Source: a virus
Reading direction: 5' to 3' (one strand)
Length of the DNA: 44,289 bases
IMG/VR virus record: IMGVR_UViG_3300023119_000049
Span: 1-44,289 of that record
Both the position numbers and the translations under genes were made by a program. This document shows positions 3,219-38,705 of this stretch, piece by piece. Position 1 is the first letter of the stretch; the number at the start of each line of letters is the position of its first letter. Below the pieces are notes generated by a model, which saw only the letters and a list, made by a program, of their open reading frames with translations, was not told where the DNA came from and did not search any database.

Positions 3219-3317
3219 CTATGTGTGAGCCAGAAAAATAGCCCACAATCCATACAACGAACCAAAAATAATTATAACAGCAAATAGTTCAAGATAAAAT
3301 TGTGTTTTACTTCCCAT
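3219..3317 (-). CDS. Tiny membrane peptide
   Basis: A 32-residue frame, MGSKTQFYLELFAVIII followed by FGSLYGLWAIFLAHT. It is nearly all one hydrophobic helix with a short polar N-terminus. It overlaps the end of the large upstream gene by 11 bases, and a GGATGAGG stretch just before the ATG may serve as a ribosome site. It fills the gap before the lipoprotein gene, as phage micro-genes often do. Function unknown; it may not be translated. Confidence 0.35.
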   Translation of the reverse strand: MGSKTQFYLELFAVIIIFGSLYGLWAIFLAHT

Positions 3318-4764
3318 CCTCATCCTTGATACCAAAGATTTTTTTGATTTCGATTGTGATCGGTTTCTTTGGTCCAATGATATCATTGAAATGATGAATT
3401 GTTTTTTTCTTTTTATTTTTCATAATAAATGTTCCTTCTTTCATGTTGATTCTTGCGACAGGTTCAATTGACTTGTTTGAACTTGAAACAATAAGATCAG
3501 GTAGTGACTTGAGCTTTTTGGTGAGGCCTTTGACTTTCTCAGGTTTCAACCAGTCAGCCGGCTTGATGTTATGAACATCATACAAATCATTCTGAACTAC
3601 AGCATATAAATCTTTTTCTTCTAAATGTCTTTTGAGCATACTAAAATAATTCAAGATGAGTAGTGACCACTTTCCTTTGGTAAATCCAACTTCTTTTCCG
3701 GTGATTGCTTCAGTCGCAGCCAAATAAGAAACAAAGTAATTCGAGAACGCACCTTTTTCATTCGTGAAACTGATGTATTCAATCTGTTCCTTTTTCTTCG
3801 GTCCCACTGATTCTGGATAATTTCGATTATAATTCCAATCGACAACTTCTGCCTTTTGTTTACTGGTGTCGAAGAAAACAGCCTGTATTGGTTCGGACGG
3901 ATGAATAATTCCCTCACCGCTTTTATCAAAAGCACCATCGTATCCTAACGTACGAAACATCTTATTCCACATTGTCGTCATTTTTATTCTTAATGATTCA
4001 CGAATATCATCATGTTTATATGTAACTACACCATTCTCTTCATCAAATTCAATTTCATTAAGCATATAATAACAAGCAACTCTTGTCAAATTCCATAATT
4101 CACTTCCTGCCGAATCAATTCTTGATTCATCTGGTGCTTGAGTAATAATTGCGTAGATTTCTTTTTGATACCATTCAGGTGTATCATCAATAGAATCTTT
4201 GCGATTTTTCTTTGCCCAATCAAACATCATTTTCGAAAGAATATTTTGGACTTTTTTTAAATCAGCCCTACGATAATTATTCAAATCAAGCATTTTACCT
4301 TTTGCACGAATCAAATAGAAACCTGGCTGGTCAGCAGCAAAAGGAATATCTTTAAAAGTTCGTGTCTTTTTATCAGCATATCTTGAGAAAAGTTCTTTCA
4401 CAGGATAAGTGTAGAGACCATTTGGTGTTTTATATTTTGAATGTGGATTGATTCCTAACTTATATCCAGAAGTGTTTTTATCTTTGACATTTCTCAGTCT
4501 TTGTTTTTGTCGATGCTTATTGTCTAGATTACCAAGAGCAGAGGCAATTGCACTTCCAAGAATTGTTTCTTTACTTGTGTCTGGTTTACCTCTCTCGGTT
4601 TTCTTTGTCACTTGTTTATGACTTTGTTTACCAACATCAGACACAAAAGTGATATAGATATCACTATCGTTACGATATGGCCATAAGGTTTCCCAGATAC
4701 CAATTTTAGGATTTTTTTCTGGGTTTCTTCTTGCTTCTGTTAAAAATTGACTAAATGATTTCAT
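3307..4764 (-). CDS. Capsid-targeted internal protein candidate, paralogue of the protein at 24443
   Basis: A 485-residue protein beginning MKSFSQFLTE|ARRNP. The first 11 residues match the T4 internal-protein capsid-targeting peptide (MKTYQEFIAEA), and LTE|A fits the T4 prohead protease rule [IL]xE|[AG]. The body shares segments with the product at 24443: ARRNPxxNP, the SKYKTPNGLYTYPV segment, a PFAxDxP stretch, and GYDG...GEGIIHPSEPIQAVFF (about residues 285-315). The last of these resembles the C-terminal part of phage ADP-ribosyltransferase-like folds, but the full catalytic triad is not identified. Role inferred: a virion-packaged protein ejected with DNA. GAAGGA before the ATG is the ribosome site. 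Confidence 0.75.
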   Translation of the reverse strand: MKSFSQFLTEARRNPEKNPKIGIWETLWPYRNDSDIYITFVSDVGKQSHKQVTKKTERGKPDTSKETILGSAIASALGNLDNKHRQKQRLRNVKDKNTSGYKLGINPHSKYKTPNGLYTYPVKELFSRYADKKTRTFKDIPFAADQPGFYLIRAKGKMLDLNNYRRADLKKVQNILSKMMFDWAKKNRKDSIDDTPEWYQKEIYAIITQAPDESRIDSAGSELWNLTRVACYYMLNEIEFDEENGVVTYKHDDIRESLRIKMTTMWNKMFRTLGYDGAFDKSGEGIIHPSEPIQAVFFDTSKQKAEVVDWNYNRNYPESVGPKKKEQIEYISFTNEKGAFSNYFVSYLAATEAITGKEVGFTKGKWSLLILNYFSMLKRHLEEKDLYAVVQNDLYDVHNIKPADWLKPEKVKGLTKKLKSLPDLIVSSSNKSIEPVARINMKEGTFIMKNKKKKTIHHFNDIIGPKKPITIEIKKIFGIKDEDGK

Positions 4765-4822
4765 ATTCCTTCAAGTGATGGTCTGTAAGCTTCTTCTTCA
4801 CAACTGCAAAATGCATAATACC

Positions 4823-5443
4823 TCATAAAGCAAATGACATATTATCTTTTGTAAGACCAGCATCTAAAATTACTGGCTTTGATTTATAAATTCCCCAATT
4901 GGATTTCTGACGATACTCACCTAATTGCAATCGGTTCTTCTTAACAAATTTGACAAATTCTTGAATCTTTTTATTTTTCTTTTCTTTATGGTCTTCATTA
5001 TTAATAATTGCTGAAAGAACTTTTCTCCATTCAGCAAAAGATACATCAAATTCACGATAGAAAATATTTTCATCAAACTTAGTTGCTTTGTGTAATAATA
5101 ACCATGAAGTATCTGCATTCTCGTTATCATCATATTCAATCATTGGAACCATGTATGGTGGATTCATGTCATACTTTTTATATAGATTTACTTCAGCTAA
5201 ATTTTGACGAAAGCCCTTGACATTCTTTGCAATTTTCATTACAGTTACATATTTTTTCTCATCAATTTCAAAAGCAGTTCGTCCAGAACCATTGCCAATT
5301 TTCTTGGCTTTTTCATTTGCTATGCTGATTTTCTTTTGGAAGCTCATTCGATCTCCTGTCCATTCGTCAGCATCCTGCCAACCGAGTTTATGTAATATTG
5401 TTTTTGTTTTTTCTTCAGTGAGAAATCTTGAAAATGATTTCAT
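4823..5443 (-). CDS. Kinase-like protein with capsid-targeting N-terminus
   Basis: A 206-residue protein starting MKSFSRFLTE|EK, with a targeting-like peptide. The body has the layout of a small protein-kinase-like fold: a glycine-rich loop GNGSGRTAF (50-58), a lysine strand VMKIAKN (Lys70), a helix glutamate AEVNLYKK (Glu84), a hinge-like TSWLLLHKA, then NWGIYKSKPVILDAGLT, where Asn182 and Asp194 could act as metal ligands in place of the usual N and DFG. A clear HRD catalytic loop is missing, so activity is uncertain. The ATG overlaps the upstream stop (ATGA). If packaged in the head, it could modify host proteins at the start of infection; that is inference. Confidence 0.7.
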   Translation of the reverse strand: MKSFSRFLTEEKTKTILHKLGWQDADEWTGDRMSFQKKISIANEKAKKIGNGSGRTAFEIDEKKYVTVMKIAKNVKGFRQNLAEVNLYKKYDMNPPYMVPMIEYDDNENADTSWLLLHKATKFDENIFYREFDVSFAEWRKVLSAIINNEDHKEKKNKKIQEFVKFVKKNRLQLGEYRQKSNWGIYKSKPVILDAGLTKDNMSFAL

Positions 5444-5700
5444 TTAGGAAATTCTTTCAATAATTTTGATTCAGTTGTAGGTCTTTGGCTTTCATCATCA
5501 AACCAAAACTTGATGAGTATTGACACATATTTTTTTAATTGTAAAGGTAAAATTTCTTTGCTAATCTCAACACCAAACTTTCGTAATGCAATTTCTTTTG
5601 CTTTTTGGTTTTTCATACCAAAAATTATAAGAAGTTGTTCATGATAATTTTTTCTTAATTTCGTTGCTTGTTCAAGAACAAAATCTTTGTAAGTTTTCAT
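5440..5700 (-). CDS. Small internal-protein-like gene with capsid-targeting peptide
   Basis: An 86-residue, lysine-rich helical protein starting MKTYKDFVLE|QATKL. MKTYxxF is identical to T4 IPIII at five of the first seven positions. Its small size and positive charge match T4 internal proteins IPI-IPIII, which are packaged with DNA and cleaved after xxE by gp21. The rest (AKEIALRKFGVEISKEI...) shows no recognised domain. The start overlaps the stop of the upstream internal-protein-like gene, and its own stop overlaps the start of the kinase-like gene. Confidence 0.65.
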   Translation of the reverse strand: MKTYKDFVLEQATKLRKNYHEQLLIIFGMKNQKAKEIALRKFGVEISKEILPLQLKKYVSILIKFWFDDESQRPTTESKLLKEFPK

Positions 5701-5960
5701 TTTTCAAAGAAACGTTGAAGTATACTAAAATCATTTTTAAATTGTTCAAAAGAATCTGAATTTCTTTTTATCATATCAGTAATCTTTTTTCTTTGAAGAG
5801 CGGTCAATTCTGTCTCACCTAATTCTTTTAGACCTTTAGCAAAATCATTGTAACCTTTATTCAGGGTAGCGATCGCAAAGGTCACTTTGTCAAATGCTTT
5901 GACCGTTTTTTGTTGATTTGAATTTTCAGTAACTTGACGAAATTCCTTATAAGTTTTCAT
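5697..5960 (-). CDS. Small internal-protein-like gene with capsid-targeting peptide
   Basis: An 87-residue protein, MKTYKEFRQVTE|NSNQQ. A start six codons upstream (to 5978) is possible, but the inner ATG places the targeting peptide at the N-terminus as in its neighbours. The protease site would be VTE|N, two residues later than in T4 IPIII. The rest is predicted helical and charged, with a four-helix or coiled-coil feel (FAKGLKELGETELTALQRKKITDMIKRN). The ATG lies inside the 3' end of the upstream membrane-protein gene. It is coupled to the next gene by a four-base overlap. Confidence 0.62.
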   Translation of the reverse strand: MKTYKEFRQVTENSNQQKTVKAFDKVTFAIATLNKGYNDFAKGLKELGETELTALQRKKITDMIKRNSDSFEQFKNDFSILQRFFEK

Positions 5961-6276
5961 CTTTCTTTTCTTCTTCATCGATTGTTATATTATCTGGCTG
6001 ATGGGTTCGATATTTTTCTTCAAAGTAATCATGTGTTTGATAGGCAGCAACAAGATATCCAAACATAAAGGAGGCAATCACTAAAAAAGTTGTTGTCAAA
6101 TTTCGTTGAAGACCACCTTTGCCTTTATTTTTCTTGATACCTTTGTAGACCAAATAAGTGGCTAAGATTGTTGTGATAATTGCAAGCGCAATTGTCCATG
6201 GATTTTGAACAAAGGTAATTGCACTACTTCCTCCTACCATGAAGATGAGTGCTGAGATCCAGCATTGGGGACAAAT
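5947..6276 (-). CDS. Two-helix membrane protein with N-terminal CPxCW, probable ATT start
   Basis: The first ATG in frame is at 6240, but no ribosome site precedes it. Upstream the frame stays open and reads CPQCWISALIF directly after a strong AGGAGG (6285-6280) and an ATT codon at 6276-6274. I place the start at that ATT, giving 109 residues. The protein then has a hydrophobic segment (NPWTIALAIITTILATYLVY), a basic loop (KGIKKNKGKGG), a second helix (TTFLVIASFMFGYLVAAY) and an acidic tail. The function is not recognised. The ATT start is inference; the ATG form would be 97 residues. Confidence 0.65.
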   Translation of the reverse strand: MCPQCWISALIFMVGGSSAITFVQNPWTIALAIITTILATYLVYKGIKKNKGKGGLQRNLTTTFLVIASFMFGYLVAAYQTHDYFEEKYRTHQPDNITIDEEEKKDENL

Positions 6277-6286
6277 TTTTCCTCCT

Positions 6287-6955
6287 TTAGTCTCGTGACT
6301 TTAGTTTACAATTATCAAAATGATATCTGGTCATATTTGATTGACCGCCAGATTTAGAACAATGTGGACATTTAACTTTTTTTTGAATTTTATTTTTTCC
6401 CTTCATTGACTCTGACATTTTTCTTCTTGTCTCCTCAGAATATGATCCTCTTTTTCTTCTCGCCTCTGTAAGTTTTCTTTTATGTTCTTCGCTAAAAGGC
6501 CCTTTTGGTTTTCCTTTTGCTGCTTTTGACATATTTTGTTTAGCTTCTTCAGAAAACGGTTCTCTTTTTTTCCATGACTCTTTCAACTTTTCAATTGTTT
6601 CCGGACTATGTTTGTAATTTTTTCTCGCTTCTCTTAACTTTTGTCTAACTTCTTCTGTAGGTGAACTTCCTTCACCACCATCTGTCATATTATAACCATT
6701 TTGATTCACAAATGAATTGTATTTTTTTATGTATTTTTTTTCTAATCGATCAAGGTCTTTTTTTGAATTTGTTTCGGTAAGTATTTCTATTTTGAAATTT
6801 TCTATACCATATTTGTGCATCGCTTGATGTAATGCATATTTTTGTTTGTTCACCGCATTCCATTTATGCTTATACCATCGTTCTTCTACACTTACTGTTG
6901 TTTGACCAATATAAATTTTATTGTTTATTTCATTTGTTATTTTGTATATCCACAT
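6287..6955 (-). CDS. GIY-YIG homing endonuclease with NUMOD3 repeats and zinc finger
   Basis: A 222-residue free-standing nuclease of the SegA-E type. The N-terminus has MWIYKITNEINNKIYIGQT, the GIY-YIG strands, then the active-site region RWYKHKWNA, HQAMHKYGIENFKIEIL and YNMTDGGEG. The middle (100-190) holds at least four NUMOD3-like repeats of the type SEEHKRKLTEARRKRG, which read DNA. The C-terminus is a CPHC...HFDNC zinc finger (about 198-217). GGATG precedes the ATG. It sits between two late virion-type genes and is likely a mobile insertion. Confidence 0.9.
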   Translation of the reverse strand: MWIYKITNEINNKIYIGQTTVSVEERWYKHKWNAVNKQKYALHQAMHKYGIENFKIEILTETNSKKDLDRLEKKYIKKYNSFVNQNGYNMTDGGEGSSPTEEVRQKLREARKNYKHSPETIEKLKESWKKREPFSEEAKQNMSKAAKGKPKGPFSEEHKRKLTEARRKRGSYSEETRRKMSESMKGKNKIQKKVKCPHCSKSGGQSNMTRYHFDNCKLKSRD

Positions 6956-6966
6956 TTTTCATCCTT

Positions 6967-9396
6967 TCAATGAATCACTAGTAAGGTTCCCTGAACATCT
7001 CTTCTTTGTGCTGATACATCTCCATCATTTGTTGATACTAAAACGTGATACTTATTTCGATTGGCTTTATCCTCAGGAATTTTATTCATTTCATCATATG
7101 TTAGAATCTCTTTATCATATCCATAATATTTCTTAAGTGCTTCTTTGTATAATCTTAGTACTTCCTCAGGCAGATAAGTTTTATACAAAGAAGGATATTT
7201 CTTTTCTAAATCACGAACCTGTTGTGTTGAAAGAATCGCATCAAGTTTCTTTTCATCAAAAACAAATCGCCCTTGTTTACCTTTTGTTTTCTTGAACATC
7301 ATTTCAAAGGCATGTTCTTTTTCAATTCCAGGAAAGTGTTTTTGAACTTCACTATTCTTTTCTTTGAATGACTCGAAGTCCTCCGCACCATGCACAGCTA
7401 GTTTAGGTATGTAGTTGAAAGAAGCAACCTTCGATTCGACGTTAACGTTTTTGTGTGGAGTACCGTTAATGGTCATCGAAGCTAACTTGGTTCGAGTGGT
7501 AGTTGCATTAATACTATTAAAGTTTTCTTCACCAATGGAGTTGAGCTTACTCAGCAAACTGTCTGAAAACACTCGTCTTTCTCCCAGCTTCTTTCCTTCA
7601 CTATCAGTGAATTTCTCATACGCAGGAATGTTCAAATCAATCACTTTAGAGAATTTGAATTTGGCTAATTCGGGTATCTTGCTGATTTTCTTATCATATC
7701 TTCCACCATATGACAGATTGAAGACAAAGTTGTCAGGTATATTGCTCATGGATGGAGCAGCATTTCCTTTGAAGTCTTTTCCTGTGACAACTTCATGAAT
7801 CATTTCAACACGTTTGGTGTAAGCATAGTGAAGAATGTTTGGTGTTCCTTTCGCAATGTTCATAATCAAATCAAAATACTTTCTTGAGAAGAAGTCACCC
7901 GCATCATGCCATCGAATGATCACTTCCTTATTCGATTTACTATGAAGTGTTTTCAGATAGGCAGCGGTCTTTTTTGCAAACTGCTCAGGATGATTGACAA
8001 GGAAAGTGAGAACTTGAGCAGCACTGATTGAAGGTGCTGAATACATTGTGTAGAATCCTTTTGTTGCGTAACAGAAAGATTTACACAAGGCAGCAGATGG
8101 GCATGTGTTAAGAATCGCAAGGCCTGGAGGATGAGATTTACCGTAAATGTCTTTCCAGTTTCTCTCCATATACACCAGACCTTTATACGCTGGCAGCGTG
8201 AAATCATAAATTTCTTTTGACTTACCCAAGGCACCCATTGACTTCATCATCTTTTGATTCTGAGATAATGATTTGTCAGGCTCATAGATGTAGGCGTTGC
8301 CTCCTGATTTCGCAAACAATCTTTCATAGGATGCAGTAGTCTTATTGTAACTTTTATATCGTCGAGCAAGTTCTTTTTCATCCATTGAAACAAACTTTGA
8401 GTTTGTCTTTGTCACACCATCATAGAAGAAATATTTAAACTCACCACTTTGTCCGTCAGGATCTTTACTAAACCCCTTCAATACTGATTTGATTGCTTTT
8501 TCTTTGTTCATACCTTTCTTCACCTTTTCCTCTACATCGGCATGAATCTCATCAAACAGGTCTCGTATTTCTTTCTTTGTCAGTTGTGAACCATCTTTCT
8601 TATAGATGTTCTTGACAATACCATCCATTGGCACATCTTTACCCATGATGTAATCAATCAGCACTTGGTCATCTTCCACTTCAAGACCATCCATCATCGC
8701 AGAAGAGTGAAGTAATGGTTTGTTCACAGCAGGATCAGGATAAACTGCCTTGACCATTCTCATTTCAAGATTCAATCCTTTTTTCAATCGTTCAATCAAG
8801 TCATCTGCGATTTGATTTTTGTTCAATCCTTTTTCGTAAATGGCACCAATATCTTCTTTCAGACCTTTCTTTTCTAACTCAGCGATAAAGTCTTTCTGAA
8901 AATCTCTTGCTTTGGCTTGTGTGTTCTTTTCACGAAATGCTTTTTCGGATTGTGAATTATATCCAGCAGCATATTCATTGAAGGCTGATTTGAGTAAACG
9001 ATTGAATTGACGAATCTTATTTTCAATGGCATCATTCGAATAATTTTTTAGATTCTTTGCGATACGAATACGAAGTGTGATGTTTTCCATCCAGGACTTA
9101 TAATCTCTTTCAGGTGTATACTTCATTGCTTTGAGGTCATCCCAATAACTTTCAGTCAAATCTTCTTTTGGTGGATTCTTAAGTAGTTTGTCTCGCTTCT
9201 CAAGTTGATAGAATTGTTTTGGTGTCATCAACATAAAAATTTCACCATTTGAACTTGATAAACTTCCAGCTGGTTTTTCTTTTTGAGGTAGTTTTTGTTT
9301 GAATGTGTATAAGCCAGCTTCTTTGATTTTTCTCTGTTCTTGCCCTTGAGCAAATTCGAGAATCATTTCTTTGCAATATGATGAGAATGAAAGCAT
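6967..9396 (-). CDS. Large GP88-like cysteine-motif protein, possible virion protein
   Basis: An 809-residue protein. The N-terminus MLSFSSYCKEMILE|F is a divergent version of the capsid-targeting peptide seen in its neighbours. Residues about 90-350 are helical and charged. Residues 425-530 hold the motif NTCPSAALCKSFCYATKG (Cys432, Cys438, Cys442), then FLVNHPEQF and IIRWHDAGDFFSRKYF and YAYTKR. This order of a CPxxxxC...CYA cluster followed by R-H-D-GDF resembles the GP88 family known from mycobacteriophages and other elements, whose function is unknown. A metal or Fe-S centre is possible. A late-type promoter lies 46 bases upstream, and the ribosome site is AGGA. Confidence 0.7.
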   Translation of the reverse strand: MLSFSSYCKEMILEFAQGQEQRKIKEAGLYTFKQKLPQKEKPAGSLSSSNGEIFMLMTPKQFYQLEKRDKLLKNPPKEDLTESYWDDLKAMKYTPERDYKSWMENITLRIRIAKNLKNYSNDAIENKIRQFNRLLKSAFNEYAAGYNSQSEKAFREKNTQAKARDFQKDFIAELEKKGLKEDIGAIYEKGLNKNQIADDLIERLKKGLNLEMRMVKAVYPDPAVNKPLLHSSAMMDGLEVEDDQVLIDYIMGKDVPMDGIVKNIYKKDGSQLTKKEIRDLFDEIHADVEEKVKKGMNKEKAIKSVLKGFSKDPDGQSGEFKYFFYDGVTKTNSKFVSMDEKELARRYKSYNKTTASYERLFAKSGGNAYIYEPDKSLSQNQKMMKSMGALGKSKEIYDFTLPAYKGLVYMERNWKDIYGKSHPPGLAILNTCPSAALCKSFCYATKGFYTMYSAPSISAAQVLTFLVNHPEQFAKKTAAYLKTLHSKSNKEVIIRWHDAGDFFSRKYFDLIMNIAKGTPNILHYAYTKRVEMIHEVVTGKDFKGNAAPSMSNIPDNFVFNLSYGGRYDKKISKIPELAKFKFSKVIDLNIPAYEKFTDSEGKKLGERRVFSDSLLSKLNSIGEENFNSINATTTRTKLASMTINGTPHKNVNVESKVASFNYIPKLAVHGAEDFESFKEKNSEVQKHFPGIEKEHAFEMMFKKTKGKQGRFVFDEKKLDAILSTQQVRDLEKKYPSLYKTYLPEEVLRLYKEALKKYYGYDKEILTYDEMNKIPEDKANRNKYHVLVSTNDGDVSAQRRDVQGTLLVIH

Positions 9397-9461: not shown

Positions 9462-10253
9462 TTACATAGAAATCATGCGATGAGCTACAGTCGGATCAAA
9501 ATCATCAAAGTTATTATTAATGTAATTAAAAAAATTAGTATACGCTACTTTACTTGATGAACTTACTTTGCGTTTTTTATAGTCTTCAGCAACATATTGA
9601 GGGTCTATAACATTTTCAAAATAATAAAAAGATTTTGATATACTTGCCTTTTCCTCTGCTGACAAAGGACGATAACTTGACCGGTCCATTGTAACTGCAT
9701 TTAACAAAATAAATTTTGACCTTTTAGGTACAAGTTCTTGAAAAAATTTATGTGAAAATATATCATCACTATAGAGTTCTTTTAAAATTTCAATTTCAGG
9801 AATGATTTCGTTAGGTATGTTAAAAGGATTTGGTTCACCTCCTAACAGTATATGATTAAGTTTGTTGCTTTTTACAAAAAAAGGTATTCTGATGAATAAA
9901 AATTTATCTGTACTATCTTTGTATGTTTGAAATCTTTCAATTCTTCTTTGATACTGTTGTTCTGTATTTTCTTTACTCTCAATAAAATGTAGTATTCGCA
10001 TATCATACTTTTTCGAATACAATGTACCAGTTTCTGGGTTTATTGAATTAAATTTTAAGTTCCCTTTTCGTAGCACTAAGGAACTATCAAATAAGTCATG
10101 TGCTGAGGTTGTAAATAAATCTAAGGTTTTTTTGAAATTGAAAGAATCTACCCAATCCACTGGCATTGTTGGTCCACCATAACCACAGATTCTGGCTGTG
10201 GCGGTAATCCAGCAATTACGACCCAATGAAATCACTCTCATCTTGTCTGACAT
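9462..10253 (-). CDS. DUF1796 family protein (putative papain-like cysteine peptidase)
   Basis: A 263-residue protein. It starts MRVISLGRNCWITATAR (Cys14) and continues PTMPVDWVDSF, the family's SLGxxC...P.DW signature. The fold is annotated as a papain-like cysteine peptidase, and the members often sit in polysaccharide or surface-glycan loci. Here it is divergent from the tail and glycan operons starting at 10590, with a back-to-back late promoter pair between them. The catalytic His partner is not assigned with confidence. Substrate unknown. Confidence 0.75.
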   Translation of the reverse strand: MSDKMRVISLGRNCWITATARICGYGGPTMPVDWVDSFNFKKTLDLFTTSAHDLFDSSLVLRKGNLKFNSINPETGTLYSKKYDMRILHFIESKENTEQQYQRRIERFQTYKDSTDKFLFIRIPFFVKSNKLNHILLGGEPNPFNIPNEIIPEIEILKELYSDDIFSHKFFQELVPKRSKFILLNAVTMDRSSYRPLSAEEKASISKSFYYFENVIDPQYVAEDYKKRKVSSSSKVAYTNFFNYINNNFDDFDPTVAHRMISM

Positions 10254-22030: not shown

Positions 22031-22342
22031 ATGCCTACCTTATTAGAAAAATATCGAGCACGATTTGACACAAATCAAGATGGTAAGATTGATCCAGAAG
22101 AAATGAATCGATCAAAAGAAATTCTTGAAATGGAACTTCGTGAAGAAAAACAAGATGCTCAACGTCGAATGTCTTGGACTGCCATCGCTACAATGATCGT
22201 TTTCACAATCACTCTTTTCACACCACTGGTAACTGACTCAAGAGTAAGTGCTTTAGCAGATTTGCTTGGCTTATTTTATGTTGGTCAAGCCTCTATTGTA
22301 GGATTTTATTTCGGTGCCAGTGCCTTCATGTCAAAGAAATGA
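22031..22342 (+). CDS. EF-hand membrane protein
   Basis: A 103-residue protein. Residues 9-24 are a calcium-binding EF-hand loop, DTNQDGKIDPEE. After a charged helix come two membrane segments (AIATMIVFTITLFTPLV and LADLLGLFYVGQASIVGFYFGASAF). Similar EF-hand plus two-helix proteins are frequent in marine T4-like phages. A holin-like role has been suggested by their shape but is not shown here. The stop overlaps the next start by four bases. Confidence 0.7.
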   Translation: MPTLLEKYRARFDTNQDGKIDPEEMNRSKEILEMELREEKQDAQRRMSWTAIATMIVFTITLFTPLVTDSRVSALADLLGLFYVGQASIVGFYFGASAFMSKK

Positions 22343-23343
22343 AAACATATCAAGCCTTTATCACAGAACTTTTTGACAAACCATTAGAATTTGATGGTCC
22401 TCATGAAATTGAAGACCAATCATATGCTTATGAGTTTGAAACTTCAAAAGGTCAAAACTTTGAAGTCAATGCGAACATTGACAAAAATGGCGCATGGGAA
22501 TTTGGCTTTGATAGTGATAGTAGTTCAGAAACAAAATCAGGTAAAGGTGAAGAGTTTCAGGTCTTTTCAACAGTAGTCAAAATTTTAAATGACTTTATAA
22601 AACGAGAGGCACCTGATCATGTTTTTATTGAGGCTGTCAAATCAGAACCCAGCCGTTTGAGATTATTTCGTCGAATGGTTCAAAAGTTTGTTCAAAGAAA
22701 TCCAGAATATAAGTTCAGTGAAAGAGAACGAGGTCGCTATATTCGTTGGGATGTGATAGTCAAAAACAAAAACATTTCAGAAGATTACAAAGGTGAACAT
22801 CAAGCATCAGGTAAAGAAGGTGCGCCTCTTCATGACTTGACACACAATGGTGTCTATCCAAAAGATGTTTATAGTTCAAAAGGTATTCAGTATTATGGTG
22901 ATGGTGGTGAATTTGACCGAGCAGCCTTTGCTTTTGTTCAAGCATATCATAATAACCCAAATCGAAAGATTAAAATTTATCGTGCTGTTCCATATCAACA
23001 GACAAAGGAAGACCTGCTGGCAGCCCTCCAGAAAGCTCAGGCGCTATGGCTGAAGAGAGCCAAACCCTCACCTGACTTTGAATCTGAATTTCAAAAACTT
23101 GGTGCGAAAAAATATTATGAGTGGTTGGGAACTGAGGAAGAAAAACTTAAAAAGAGTGACAAGAAGGTAGAAAACATTTCAGAGATCAATCCTGGTGATT
23201 GGATCACAATCGTTCGTAATTATGCTGTTTCACATGGTCGGGCACACTTGAAGAATAAATATCGAGTACTCAGTAAAACAGTTAAAGCAAAAGAAATTTG
23301 GACCGGAGGAGACTCGATTTTAGAGTGGGGATACTCGCCATGA
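22339..23343 (+). CDS. Capsid-targeted ADP-ribosyltransferase-like protein candidate
   Basis: A 334-residue protein starting MKTYQAFITE|L. Eight of the first ten residues equal T4 IPIII (MKTYQEFIAE). Residues 30-140 form a small domain with F-V-TVV-LNDFI and a later SRLRLFRRM. Residues 195-334 resemble an ADP-ribosyltransferase fold: KIYRAVP (Arg205), INPGDWITIVRNYAVSHG (283-300), then GGDSILEWGY (Glu329) near the end. This is the R...ST/YA...E order of R-S-E-type enzymes. In T4 the head-packaged Alt protein ADP-ribosylates RNA polymerase, so this may be an Alt analogue. That activity is inference. The start is coupled to the upstream stop. Confidence 0.72.
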   Translation: MKTYQAFITELFDKPLEFDGPHEIEDQSYAYEFETSKGQNFEVNANIDKNGAWEFGFDSDSSSETKSGKGEEFQVFSTVVKILNDFIKREAPDHVFIEAVKSEPSRLRLFRRMVQKFVQRNPEYKFSERERGRYIRWDVIVKNKNISEDYKGEHQASGKEGAPLHDLTHNGVYPKDVYSSKGIQYYGDGGEFDRAAFAFVQAYHNNPNRKIKIYRAVPYQQTKEDLLAALQKAQALWLKRAKPSPDFESEFQKLGAKKYYEWLGTEEEKLKKSDKKVENISEINPGDWITIVRNYAVSHGRAHLKNKYRVLSKTVKAKEIWTGGDSILEWGYSP

Positions 23344-24446
23344 AAACATATAATCAATTCACTGAATTTCTAACTGAACAAGTTCAATGGCAAAGGTCAT
23401 TGTTTGACCATTTGTTTTATGATGCCGACTTACTCATGACTTCAGATACGTATGGAAAAGAAACTAAAAGCTATGATGAGGATGATGAAGATGATATAAA
23501 GTCTGAAGGCTTTAAGAAAGAACGAAATCAATATGTTTTTCAAAAACAAACGGATCGATCCTTTCAGTTACCACTCAATTCAAGATTTATTGAGAGAGTT
23601 TCGGGGGAGATACAACTACTTGCTTGCCACTCTACAGGTTCACAAGGTCTTAAAGATCTTGTAAAGATTCAGAAAAAAAGAACAAAACAAATCTCAGCTT
23701 ATACAGTTGACCCATATAGTGATATGACATCAGGGATCTGGTCTGACAATAATGGTGGAATTATTGCGGTTGTCAAAGGTCAAGCAGTGGCTGGTCTACA
23801 AAGAGATTTATGGAGCAAAGTTGATAAGCAAGGTAAACGCCTGTTAGATATCACAACAAATGGCGGTCTAAAACCAACTGAAGTCTTCCGCAGTGGTATT
23901 CGAGTTTGGAATAAAGAAAATAACGCTAAGTTCATGGCGCTCATCAAGAGTTATGAAAACATGACACAAGAATTAGTTGATATGAAAAGAGGTATGATTG
24001 AAACCTTACAAAAAGAATATGAGGATAAACGAGTTGCTCCAAAGAATAAAGGTGAACAACGCTGGGAAACTCTTCGTCCATATGACATACCCGGCTCAGT
24101 CAAACAGCAATATATACGTAAGTATGTGATCGGAGCAGAAAAAATTATCACCAGCAAGCCTGAATGGAAAAAGGCTTTCAATGAATATCTTTTGTCTTGG
24201 CCCAAAGCTCAAGCAAAAAGACTTAAAACTAAATCAAAGCAAGACAACTACGATGAGATCGTAGTTGGTAATTTTGAAATTCTCTATGCGTTTATTGCTA
24301 CGAGTGCTTTGAATAAGGGAGAAGACATTGAAGCCTATCGTAAACAATTCAACTTTCCAACTAAAGTCTTGCGTTATGCTACACTCGACGCAAGCAAAAG
24401 TGTGTTGAAAGATTATCTAAAAGAAATTCAAAAGAAAGAAGGATGA
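23340..24446 (+). CDS. Capsid-targeted protein, possible ADP-ribosyltransferase-like
   Basis: A 368-residue protein from the ATG at 23340, starting MKTYNQFTEFLTE|QV. A longer frame begins at 23298, but the inner start overlaps the upstream stop as ATGA and puts the targeting peptide at the front. The centre has CHSTGSQGLKDLVKIQKK...QISAYTVDPY (about 105-135), then GIIAVVKGQAVAGLQRDLWSKVDKQGKRLLD. The HST...ISAY and GGxI...D..S..D..G.R order recalls a phage family with an ART-like form. The catalytic residues are not sure. The C-terminus is basic and helical. Confidence 0.65.
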   Translation: MKTYNQFTEFLTEQVQWQRSLFDHLFYDADLLMTSDTYGKETKSYDEDDEDDIKSEGFKKERNQYVFQKQTDRSFQLPLNSRFIERVSGEIQLLACHSTGSQGLKDLVKIQKKRTKQISAYTVDPYSDMTSGIWSDNNGGIIAVVKGQAVAGLQRDLWSKVDKQGKRLLDITTNGGLKPTEVFRSGIRVWNKENNAKFMALIKSYENMTQELVDMKRGMIETLQKEYEDKRVAPKNKGEQRWETLRPYDIPGSVKQQYIRKYVIGAEKIITSKPEWKKAFNEYLLSWPKAQAKRLKTKSKQDNYDEIVVGNFEILYAFIATSALNKGEDIEAYRKQFNFPTKVLRYATLDASKSVLKDYLKEIQKKEG

Positions 24447-26332
24447 AATCATTCAATCAATTTCTTGTTGAAGCAAGAAGAAATCCAGATCAAAATCCAA
24501 AAGAGAATCCTGTCAAGAAATTATCTCCTTATCGCAAACGAGGAGATGTATTCATTTCCTTTATCAACTCTGCAAATGCCTATACAGATACTGCAGATGA
24601 AACTGTTCAAATTGGTCTGAATACTAAGTCAAGGTATAACACACCAAACGGTATCTATACTTACCCTATTGTATATGCGTATGAGGAAACAGGTGATGAT
24701 GATAAAGAATTTAATGTACCTTTCGCTGGTGATAAGCCTTGGATTGGAGTCATTCAGCGATTACCAAAAGGTAAACATCTGAATTTGACTGATGATTATG
24801 ATGGTGCTAAATTTCAAAGAGATGTCAAGGACTTGTCACATGATGTGTTAGATAAAATGAAGAAGAGATGGCCAAACAAAGATGCTCGGATCTTTCCCCG
24901 AATTATTTCTTCAGCAATAGCTCAAGCACAAAAAGATGCTCGAAACAAATCATATGCAGGCATGTTATGGAATGTTACAAGAATGATTTCATTTGTTTAT
25001 GCTGAACCAAATTGGGATAATGTTGAAGCACTTGCGGGTCGAAATTCGTCTTTTTCAACATTCAAGAAATATGAACCAAGCGCAAAAGTTTGGGCATTGC
25101 TTTGGACTCGTAGTGCTAATAAAAAATTCTTTTATGATTCAGTCTGCGATCCAGATAACAAAGGAATCATTCATCCTGCTGAAAGAACTCAATGTGTATT
25201 TTTCACAGGAAAAGCTCGCTTTGGTTGGAAATCATTTGATGCAATACCAAACAAAACCTATAATTTTGGACCATTGAAACAAGAAGCCGCAGAACAAGGC
25301 AAAGCAAAGAAATTGATCACATCAGGTAAAATTAACAAACTTGGTGGTAACAAGGTAACCGAACATATGTTGGCAAAGGTAGGTGTAACAGGAGATGCTG
25401 TTAAAGATGTATTATTGACAAATTATAAAGGTGATTCAGGAAATCTCTTGAGTAAACATCCTATGAAAGTTAAGTTACCTCCGGTTATACAACGTGATAT
25501 TTTGATCGATACTTTTAAGAATGAAAAATATCTTGTTGATGTAGACCAGAAAGAAATCTTAGCGGCAATTGCATATGCGAACGTTCGTAAGAAACCAAAA
25601 GTTATTCGTCAAGAATTACACAAAACGGGATTGAAGATCGAAAACGAAACAATGGAACAAATTGTTTCAAAGAAGCCTGATATGATTAAAGCAATCATAG
25701 ATTTCAAACCAGATGCGAAAGTTTATATAAAGGCTTTTCTAAAAGATGCTCGTTATATGAATGTTTTCAATGACAAAGCAGATGACAATCCTTTCTTTAA
25801 AGATATTTCTCATGAGATACCGGAAGAACTTCAAGAGAATTGGTCAAGAATTATTGAAAAATCTTTTCGTAACAAGGAAGTATTGATTTCAATCAAAACG
25901 GATGTCGCAAACTGGTCTTATGACTATATGAAAGATGAGCGGATTGATTCAAAATATCATGACGAAATTGAAAAGGTGATTATGGACTGGCATCCATATG
26001 CTCATATACTCATGATACTTAAAAGAAATTCGAGTCAAGAAAATGACGAAAAGAATTTGGCTTATTGTCTTGAAAGGTTATATGGAGAAGCAACACCAGA
26101 TGTCGGTAATCCCTCACCTTATTCTCAAACATATCCTATCAAAGCATCTTATCAGAGAATTCATTTTGAGATTGGTGAAAAAGTAGTAAAGGCTTTAGAA
26201 AAAGATGAGGTTATTGAAAAAGGTCCTCATCGTGAAAAAATCAAGAAGATGATATTAAAATACATTGGAAGTCTTGACTGGGAAGGCCAGAATTATACAC
26301 ATACTTGGAAGAAAACACTCAAAGAAGGATAA
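24443..26332 (+). CDS. Capsid-targeted internal protein candidate, paralogue of the protein at 3307
   Basis: A 629-residue protein starting MKSFNQFLVE|ARRNPDQNP; LVE|A fits the T4 prohead protease rule. It shares with the product at 3307 the ARRNPxxNP stretch, PYR, a SRYNTPNGIYTYPI segment, PFAGDKP, LWNVTRM and KGIIHPAERTQCVFF. Residues 1-290 therefore form a common domain, and residues 300-629 are unlike it and are mostly helical. The large size suits an ejected virion enzyme such as T4 Alt (682 residues). The function is not established. The start overlaps the upstream stop as ATGA. Confidence 0.75.
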   Translation: MKSFNQFLVEARRNPDQNPKENPVKKLSPYRKRGDVFISFINSANAYTDTADETVQIGLNTKSRYNTPNGIYTYPIVYAYEETGDDDKEFNVPFAGDKPWIGVIQRLPKGKHLNLTDDYDGAKFQRDVKDLSHDVLDKMKKRWPNKDARIFPRIISSAIAQAQKDARNKSYAGMLWNVTRMISFVYAEPNWDNVEALAGRNSSFSTFKKYEPSAKVWALLWTRSANKKFFYDSVCDPDNKGIIHPAERTQCVFFTGKARFGWKSFDAIPNKTYNFGPLKQEAAEQGKAKKLITSGKINKLGGNKVTEHMLAKVGVTGDAVKDVLLTNYKGDSGNLLSKHPMKVKLPPVIQRDILIDTFKNEKYLVDVDQKEILAAIAYANVRKKPKVIRQELHKTGLKIENETMEQIVSKKPDMIKAIIDFKPDAKVYIKAFLKDARYMNVFNDKADDNPFFKDISHEIPEELQENWSRIIEKSFRNKEVLISIKTDVANWSYDYMKDERIDSKYHDEIEKVIMDWHPYAHILMILKRNSSQENDEKNLAYCLERLYGEATPDVGNPSPYSQTYPIKASYQRIHFEIGEKVVKALEKDEVIEKGPHREKIKKMILKYIGSLDWEGQNYTHTWKKTLKEG

Positions 26333-29036: not shown

Positions 29037-30257
29037 TTAGGTAGTCTCTTCTACAAAACTATAATTGTGACTACCGGTGAGTCCACCCACCTCGTATGAT
29101 GCAACCCTAGCTTCAAAAAAATTGTCATGACTGACATTCGAGAGTATCCAATCTAACCAAGAAAGTGGATTCTCTTTGACCTTGAAATTTGATTTGAGAC
29201 CTAATTGAATCAATCTTCGATCAGCCATGTAACGAATATACAATTTGACTTCTTCTTCACTTAAACCTTCAGGTGAATAAAAGCCGTATGCTCGTTCAAT
29301 AAAGGCATCTTCTAACTTAACGGCAGTTCGAACCATTTTGTAGATTTTCTTTTTGAACTCATCATTCACAATTTTAGGATTTTCAGCACAATAAGTGCGG
29401 AATAACTTTGCCATTCCCAAGGCATGACACGTTTCGTCTCTTATCGAAAATTCATTGATCTTACCAAAACCCTTGAGTTTACCAAATCGTTGGAAATTCA
29501 ACAACATTGCAAAACTGCTGAAGAGAACTAAACCTTCATTGATGACAGATTTCGCAATTGATAAACCTTTTCCTTCTTTTGTGTGAATATCAATGTCAAG
29601 CATGAAGTCGTGCTTCTCTCTCATTTCTTCAATCTCTAAGAAAGCTGAATATTCTGATTCAGGAAAGCCCATCGTATCATTGAAGAGAGAATAACTCTCT
29701 TGATGGATATACTCACGACTGGCAAAACTTGTCAACATCTTGCGTATCTCATTGTTTTTGAATACTTTTAAATAATAATTGATATAGTTTTCTCCAACAT
29801 TTACGTCACTTTGAACAAATAATGTCAAAACGCTTCGAATGAAATCTTTTTCGCCTTGTGACAATTTGTTTGATTTCCATTCATGAACGTCATCCTCTAG
29901 ACTTACCTCATCGGCAATCCAATGAATCTTTTCATGATTCTGTGCTATTTCAACGGCCCAAGGATATCGAAAAGGTTTATATGTAATACTTGGTTCTTCT
30001 AATCCCCCAAATTCTTTTTTCAAAATAATTTGTTCTTGCTGTAACAATTCAGTATATGTTCCAATATGCTTGTCATCAATGAAGATTTGAGGAACAGATG
30101 TGACTTGCTTACCATTCGAAACTCGCTGATAAAATTCTTGTCTTTCATTATAGTCATCCAAGACAATTTCTTCAAAGGCGATTCGATTTGTCTTGAACCA
30201 CTCCTTCGCCTTGACACAATAACTACAACCTGTTTTACTGTAAATTTTTACTTCCAT
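29037..30257 (-). CDS. nrdB: Glutaredoxin-ribonucleotide reductase beta subunit fusion
   Basis: A 406-residue protein. Residues 1-75 are a glutaredoxin (CSYC at 11-14, TSVPQIFIDD). From about 90 on it is a class Ia NrdB. The metal ligands fit Asp151, Glu182, His185, Glu241, Glu275 and His278, and the radical tyrosine is Tyr189 (REYIHQESY). The Glu241-Glu275 spacing of 34 equals E. coli Glu204-Glu238. The protein would form the tyrosyl-radical subunit for NrdA, with its own thiol donor attached. In T4 glutaredoxin (nrdC) is separate. It lies 60 bases downstream of nrdA on the same strand. Confidence 0.93.
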   Translation of the reverse strand: MEVKIYSKTGCSYCVKAKEWFKTNRIAFEEIVLDDYNERQEFYQRVSNGKQVTSVPQIFIDDKHIGTYTELLQQEQIILKKEFGGLEEPSITYKPFRYPWAVEIAQNHEKIHWIADEVSLEDDVHEWKSNKLSQGEKDFIRSVLTLFVQSDVNVGENYINYYLKVFKNNEIRKMLTSFASREYIHQESYSLFNDTMGFPESEYSAFLEIEEMREKHDFMLDIDIHTKEGKGLSIAKSVINEGLVLFSSFAMLLNFQRFGKLKGFGKINEFSIRDETCHALGMAKLFRTYCAENPKIVNDEFKKKIYKMVRTAVKLEDAFIERAYGFYSPEGLSEEEVKLYIRYMADRRLIQLGLKSNFKVKENPLSWLDWILSNVSHDNFFEARVASYEVGGLTGSHNYSFVEETT

Positions 30258-38087: not shown

Positions 38088-38705
38088 TTACCTTATCCAA
38101 TGATTTATATGTTCTGTAATATTAGGATTGATGACAACTTTTGTTTTGTTTTCTTCTTTATCCTTTTTCTCTTTGTTTTGACGTTCTTCCTCTTCTTTCT
38201 TATCTTCGTAAGAAAGTTTCTCACTTCGTTTTTTATCATTTTCTAGATAATCAATCTCATCATCAATTTTATCCTCAACATCTTCAGGATCAGGATCTTC
38301 ATCACCCTCTGAATCTTCAACATCTTTTGAGACATTTTTGATTGCCTTTTTCTCAATATCATCTTTTGATTGAGTTACATCTTTTTCATTGTCAGGATCA
38401 TAATCATCTTTTTTTGGATCATCCTCTTCTTCATCATCAGGTCCTATTTCTTCATCTTCTCCCGAATCTTCTTCGCTATCTTCACTGCTTTCAGCATCAT
38501 CTTCGCCTTCAAAATCTTTGTCTGAATCCATCTCTTCGTCAGAACTTTCATCAGACGTATCAGTGTCCTCTTCTTCCGTTGTGTCATCTTCTTCATCCTC
38601 TTCTGAACTTTGAGCAAATAAGGCTTCTAAATCATCATCTTCTTTTTGCTTTTTCTTTTTTTCAAAAAGATTAAGACCCTGTATAAATTGATTATAACTC
38701 TTCAT
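38088..38705 (-). CDS. Highly acidic protein, prohead-core-like
   Basis: A 205-residue protein. The N-terminus MKSYNQFIQGLNLFEKKKK is a longer version of the targeting peptides, and residues 22-150 are mainly Asp, Glu and Ser. The C-terminus is basic-acidic and ends NPNITEHINHWIR. The composition resembles T4 gp67 and other acidic prohead core proteins, which hold the scaffold core together before cleavage. That comparison is by composition only. It overlaps the phosphoesterase-like gene by 14 bases. Confidence 0.6.
   Translation of the reverse strand: MKSYNQFIQGLNLFEKKKKQKEDDDLEALFAQSSEEDEEDDTTEEEDTDTSDESSDEEMDSDKDFEGEDDAESSEDSEEDSGEDEEIGPDDEEEDDPKKDDYDPDNEKDVTQSKDDIEKKAIKNVSKDVEDSEGDEDPDPEDVEDKIDDEIDYLENDKKRSEKLSYEDKKEEEERQNKEKKDKEENKTKVVINPNITEHINHWIR

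Follow-up and report, generated by a model that had tools for sequence, protein, structure and literature searches.

Nine genes of an uncultured T4-like phage begin with a peptide of the T4 capsid-targeting type

Why would genes for mostly unrelated proteins of one phage begin with nearly the same short peptide? The question is raised by a 44,289-base stretch of viral DNA (the window), which is the entire IMG/VR record IMGVR_UViG_3300023119_000049 and is itself a fragment. The window encodes homologs of gp43, uvsX, gp41 and nrdA, and its UvsX is at most 45% identical to proteins of cyanophages and other T4-like phages. Hence the phage is T4-like and has no close cultured relative. Since nine of its proteins start with the tag that loads proteins into the T4 head, a varied set of proteins, most of them uncharacterised, is probably injected by the virus along with its DNA. 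By analogy with T4, we consider it highly likely that the nine are precursors of internal head proteins, which would be packaged, cleaved by gp21 and injected.

In the peptide of T4 internal protein III (IPIII), mutagenesis has assigned targeting to residues 4 and 7 and processing to residues 8 and 10 (PMC9026906). Our tag rule was derived from these mutational data only, because fitting a pattern to the window was to be avoided. It asks for M..[FYW]..[FYW], then [LIVMA]xE within seven residues, and matches 9 of the 56 called genes in the window. They are listed below, named by their leftmost coordinate; a slash separates the predicted propeptide from the body, and lengths are in amino acids (aa).

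3307..4764 (-), tagged protein 1, 485 aa, MKSFSQFLTE/ARRNPEKNPK, propeptide 4735-4764, EAR[RK]NPxxN family
4823..5443 (-), tagged protein 2, 206 aa, MKSFSRFLTE/EKTK, propeptide 5414-5443, phrog_4301
5440..5700 (-), tagged protein 3, 86 aa, small and basic, MKTYKDFVLE/QATK, propeptide 5671-5700
5697..5960 (-), tagged protein 4, 87 aa from the predicted start ATG at 5960, small and basic, MKTYKEFRQVTE/NSNQ, propeptide 5925-5960
6967..9396 (-), tagged protein 5, 809 aa, MLSFSSYCKEMILE/FAQG, propeptide 9355-9396, GP88 domain (PF17338) at 414-582
22339..23343 (+), tagged protein 6, 334 aa, MKTYQAFITE/LFDK, propeptide 22339-22368, C-terminal domain at 144-334
23340..24446 (+), tagged protein 7, 368 aa, MKTYNQFTEFLTE/QVQWQ, propeptide 23340-23378
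24443..26332 (+), tagged protein 8, 629 aa, MKSFNQFLVE/ARRNPDQNPK, propeptide 24443-24472, paralog of 3307
38088..38705 (-), tagged protein 9, 205 aa, acidic, isoelectric point (pI) 4.1, MKSYNQFIQGLNLFE/KKKK, propeptide 38661-38705

A first-pass annotation had named eight of these genes. All eight are real, and their peptides are found in the window as it gave them; it had missed the ninth, 38088-38705 (-). The T4 IPIII start to which it compared them, MKTYQEFIAE/A, is correct, and IPII begins likewise. Gene 5697 does carry the tag MKTYKEF, but it begins at the ATG at 5960 and not at the first ATG of the open reading frame, at 5978. The annotation had also placed the peptide on unrelated bodies and counted at least eight cargo types. 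In an all-against-all BLAST of the mature bodies, one peptide type does sit on otherwise unrelated proteins, except that 3307 and 24443 are related (26% over 410 aa, E 1e-24). Because these two are paralogs, the eight named genes form only seven families. The nine tagged genes make eight, the eighth being 38088, which is possibly a head-core protein like T4 gp67 rather than cargo.

Aromatic residues at positions 4 and 7 and a gp21-type site (aliphatic-x-E) are present in all nine tags, and orthologs retain the site. The same rule matches three of 256 genes in T4 (IPII, IPIII and pseT.1, the last a false match), 0 of 218 in cyanophage S-RIM32, 0 of 93 in 50 kb of T5 and 1 of 78 in 50 kb of SPO1. 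It misses T4 IPI, which starts MKTFKEFTSTTTPVSTITE/A and has a 19-residue propeptide, because the IPI spacer is longer; a spacer of variable length therefore has a precedent in T4. In the window, 9 of 105 candidate ATG starts match the rule, compared to 4 of 1,578 internal methionines in the window, T4 and S-RIM32 (Fisher p = 6e-9).

Related contigs were collected via families 22339, 6967, 23340, 3307/24443 and 4823. In all families with orthologs the type of propeptide is retained and the junction between xxE and body is constant, while the letters and the length vary. The 6967 orthologs read MLSFSSYCKEMILE/FAQ in the window, MQSFSSFFKETILE/LAM in contig G007 and MISFSNFCTNFLIE/FKE in contig G014. 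In the 23340 family, VQWQRSLFDH always begins one residue past the tag E, behind MKTYNQFTEFLTE/QVQWQ, MKTFNSFTEYLIE/KVQWQ or MKSFKEVVNE/EVQWQ. This tag has 13 residues in three phages and 10 in G014, where MKSFKEVVNE has lost the aromatic residue at 7. Four tag versions of the 38088 family, MKSYNQFIQGLNLFE, MQSYSEFISSFVLSE and MKKTYNQFVESILLE among them, end before KKKK, and the propeptide is retained in three relatives. The G014 ortholog of 4823 (55%) begins MKTFNQFLIE/KKN, against MKSFSRFLTE/E in the window. As a further candidate, 35350 (MSFSKYSFRNLLDEF) was rejected, its N-terminus not being retained in orthologs.

The tag also moves between bodies. It occurs on unrelated bodies and is exchangeable, for the domain at residues 144-334 of the 22339 protein (motifs DYxGEH..GAPL..RAxP..GDWxT..E[WF]G) has different tags in different phages. 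In five other contigs it stands directly behind the tag (MKSFNQFLKE/DYRGEHQ), and it is tagged in two isolates, Vibrio phage VH7D (gp301, MKTYTEFLSE/YHMQHRAP) and Vibrio phage 1.081.O (MYSFSEFINLAE/SDYMGSHRAP). In yet another group MKSYIVELE precedes it and gp23 lies one or two genes upstream; in other phage contigs it lies untagged within proteins of ~1,600-2,200 residues. We read this as a domain that may be delivered by several routes.

Do tagged genes occur together with the capsid genes that the T4 mechanism needs? Contig G002 (19.3 kb, locus L042) encodes gp17 to gp20, gp21 (PF03420, E 8.5e-42), gp22 and gp23 (PF07068, E 2e-134). On its opposite strand lie three tagged genes, for a ParB-like protein, the 22339 domain and a 645-residue protein. 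Around its predicted cut site the G002 gp23 reads GLFLSE/A, compared to GSFLTE/A in T4 gp23. The link between G002 and the window is the 22339 domain, which is 69% identical and alone no proof of close kinship.

The larger contig G014 (146.5 kb) has in common with the window gp43, uvsX, gp41 and the tagged families 6967, 4823, 24443, 23340 and 38088, and it repeats the order of the window cluster (GP88, small genes, 4823 ortholog). Ten of its genes match the rule when the spacer may have up to ten residues. They include a DUF3008 protein, a ParB-like protein and a possible nucleotidyltransferase. Another tagged protein contains EEKYDGVK, FFVEF and EGVVLKD, which resemble motifs of ATP-dependent ligases; it has no profile match, and from its motifs we read it as ligase-like. 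Tagged proteins at L077:18418-20000 and L047:4870-6480 combine motifs of the ligase type with a C-terminal portion resembling a nucleotidyltransferase; they fall into a PHROG without function. ARAGORN did not bear out a string at the end of G014 that resembles a transfer-messenger RNA.

When IMG/VR was scanned for a DNA pattern of the tag, without regard to cargo, 80 loci were obtained (sample L125-L204). A gene starting with the tag is present in 68 of the 80, and 18 of these 68 have a further tagged gene. The cargos that recur are GRFNPPTTGH proteins (nucleotidyltransferase-like), LGLxxDGHGGW proteins and ~105-aa proteins with SxNIxGDF after the tag.

Cargo charge, which played no part in selecting tagged genes, gives a further comparison with T4, whose internal proteins are basic (pI 9.0-9.7). 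The mature window cargos have a pI of 8.4-9.8 in eight of nine cases, and these eight range from 9 to 91 kDa and are mostly large; the pI of 38088 (4.1) equals that of T4 gp67. A pI above 8 is found in 8/9 tagged proteins compared to 26% of other genes in the window (p = 0.008), in 9/9 compared to 29% in G014 (p = 2e-5), and in 67% compared to 32% in the 80 IMG/VR loci (p = 4e-11).

Residues 4 and 7, the xxE junction, the orthologs, the swapping of tags, the basic cargo and the presence of gp21 and gp23 beside tagged genes in a related contig all agree with capsid targeting and gp21 cleavage of the T4 type, as the first-pass annotation had proposed. The first 10-15 residues would be a capsid-targeting propeptide, whose aromatic residues 4 and 7 would dock the protein on the scaffold core during prohead formation. 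A gp21-type protease would then cut after [LIV]-x-E. Eight mostly large basic cargos would be left beside the DNA and would be delivered into the host together with it; 38088, the acidic ninth protein, may be either a cargo or part of the core, as T4 gp67 is. The cargos most likely would be active within the first minutes, countering host defences or taking over host functions. In T4, IPI inhibits the GmrSD restriction system, and IPIII is required on E. coli ECOR17 (PMC9391042), and packaged phage enzymes in general have been suggested to act early in infection (PMC9503650).

Several observations weigh against this proposal. S-RIM32, the isolate with the best UvsX match, has no tag under the rule. 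Two of the nine tags (5440 and 5697) have V rather than I or L before xE. Neither gp21 nor a capsid gene was found in G014 or in the window record, from which they are absent because the record is a fragment. Our analysis shows that the tag is present and conserved, that it moves between bodies and that the cargo is mostly basic; docking, cleavage and ejection are predicted from the work on T4, and the tagged proteins of the window phage are known here from their genes.

These points leave some room for other explanations. The one that survives best, unlikely as it is, holds that the peptide directs the proteins to the prohead core without being cut off, or that its cleavage is irrelevant, and that the proteins serve head assembly and not injection. 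The acidic 38088 protein does resemble a core protein, and mutants of T4 IPIII have effects on head assembly too (PMC9026906). However, nothing is kept better than the xxE junction, even where neighbouring residues change. Nor is a structural role suggested, because the bodies are diverse (GP88 domain here, ParB-like and ligase-like proteins in relatives).

We give little credence to the idea that the peptide is some other N-terminal address, for a membrane, another part of the virion or a compartment, and resembles the T4 tag by accident. Amphipathic peptides at an N-terminus, if short, are able to serve a variety of purposes. Yet the agreement with the T4 mutational data is detailed, the tags co-occur with gp21 and gp23 on G002, and the cargo is basic, as in T4. 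A chance resemblance, for which one could cite that start-proximal M-K-[ST]-[FY] peptides are common in AT-rich phages and that a few false matches exist (T4 pseT.1, one SPO1 gene), is already refuted by the counts of starts and internal methionines, besides which the tag is conserved across relatives and the tagged genes cluster.

The relatives of 3307 and 24443, found in 38 IMG/VR loci, have a body that starts AR[RK]NPxxN in nearly all members. The sequence before it varies but ends in E (MKSFNQFLVE, MRFREFKINE, MLQFKAFVNE, MRAYEILE, MRISELIE, MKLLEVLPLLE). In L099:9281-11206 and L102:8663-10996 the EARRNP domain follows ~240 and ~450 residues of other protein and is preceded by xxE (SALTE/ARRNP, SVPE/ARRNP), which makes internal cleavage of such longer precursors possible. 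A gp21-type protease is encoded in six contigs of 123-561 kb that carry genes of the family, and the jumbo-phage contig G026 (561 kb; L098, L099) has at least six EARRNP paralogs. Single members also bear NUDIX or Lcl_C domains. It is possible that the domain itself includes the conserved E, a further point against our proposal, and hence the family alone is no proof of cleavage.

We propose, tentatively and with less confidence than we have in the nine precursors, that the tag is a portable delivery label in environmental T4-like and jumbo phages. Diverse domains would gain an exchangeable propeptide exactly at their boundary and so become separately injected. The EAR[RK]NPxxN family would then be a large new injected family; a single 561-kb contig holds at least six members, and some would apparently be freed from longer precursors by internal xxE cuts.

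The bodies themselves give few names. Pfam and PHROGs searches of the tagged proteins yielded confident names only for the GP88 domain of 6967 (104.6 bits, curated cut-off 24.4) and for phrog_4301, a PHROG without function, and PDB sequence searches with profiles of five families found nothing. That the 4823 body is kinase-like is only a guess. No relatives of the 5440 and 5697 proteins were found, nor any in named phages for the 24443 family using three of its members. The 3307 core was modelled with good confidence, and its sole significant PDB fold match is chain B of the cyanophage A4 pre-ejectosome (E 9.9e-4, probability 1.00, but a template modelling (TM) score of 0.20 and a root-mean-square deviation of 9.6, which is a poor superposition). 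No sequence match turned up in the annotated internal protein of A-4L, which is not certainly the phage of the PDB entry. Kinship of the modelled core to a pre-ejectosome protein is thus suggestive only. The 22339 protein matched no known transferase or other fold in a fold search and nothing in a PDB sequence search. It resembles ADP-ribosyltransferases in motif only (R..T..E; R..GDWxT..E), which is no more than a hint at an enzymatic role. As for the label 'ParB C-terminal domain' given to this domain, it is a family name, and we did not accept it as a function.

Most cluster genes overlap head to tail (5440/5443, 5697/5700, 22339/22342, 23340/23343, 24443/24446). A scan for the late-promoter motif ATAAATA did not distinguish the tagged clusters from the rest. 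Each cluster also includes an untagged gene:

6287..6955 (-), GIY-YIG/NUMOD3 homing-endonuclease-like gene, untagged, inside the minus-strand cluster between 6967 and the small genes
22031..22342 (+), small untagged protein, first gene of the plus-strand cluster, its stop overlapping the 22339 start

The 22031..22342 protein has a weak EF-hand match slightly below the Pfam cut-off. Adjoining the minus-strand cluster, the gene at 9462-10253 (-) has a DUF1796 match (putative papain-like cysteine peptidase) barely over the Pfam cut-off. Elsewhere, at 29037-30257 (-), a ribonucleotide reductase small subunit has a glutaredoxin domain fused to its N-terminus.

How does this set compare to known systems? 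With T4 IPI, IPII and IPIII (Mullaney and Black 1996, reviewed in PMC9026906) it shares the type of peptide, the aromatic residues at 4 and 7, the xxE junction, basic mature proteins and a variable spacer. In contrast to T4, which has three such genes in 169 kb, the window has nine in 44 kb; its bodies are unrelated by the searches made, and several cargos are much larger (up to 91 kDa). The packaged ADP-ribosyltransferase Alt of T4 is a large injected enzyme with a short propeptide and shares the string ITE/LFD with 22339, but the bodies have no sequence match and a fold search did not bear out the transferase-like motif of 22339. In phage P1, an N-terminal signal (the first 30 residues) sends the very large DarB, and a reporter, to the head (PMC9024508); compared by description and not by sequence, the signals there have 10-30 residues and the head protease is another one. 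The giant phage SPN3US removes N-terminal propeptides from injected proteins with its prohead protease (PMC5694885), but these mostly exceed 100 residues and have another cleavage motif. Finally, the occurrence of the 22339 domain within very long proteins recalls polyvalent proteins (PMC5512222), whereas 22339 itself is a separate, individually tagged protein of 334 aa and lacks the several disparate domains that define them.

The tag and the packaging principle are already known, and T4-like phages carry other basic proteins with capsid-targeting sequences (PMC9026906). The cargo families themselves are new, in number and size as well, and so is the evidence for tag swapping at domain boundaries. 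Judged by title or abstract, none of the 15 open full-text papers found to use the capsid-targeting term deals with marine phages or these cargo families. Most of the cargos appear to be new, with functions that are predictions only.

Phage-injected proteins are known for only a few model phages. If our reading is true, a simple sequence rule would tell directly from the DNA which proteins uncultured T4-like phages inject. The prediction is open to direct checking, as one tagged cargo is encoded by an isolate, Vibrio phage VH7D. The new families would then be candidates for anti-defence or take-over functions.

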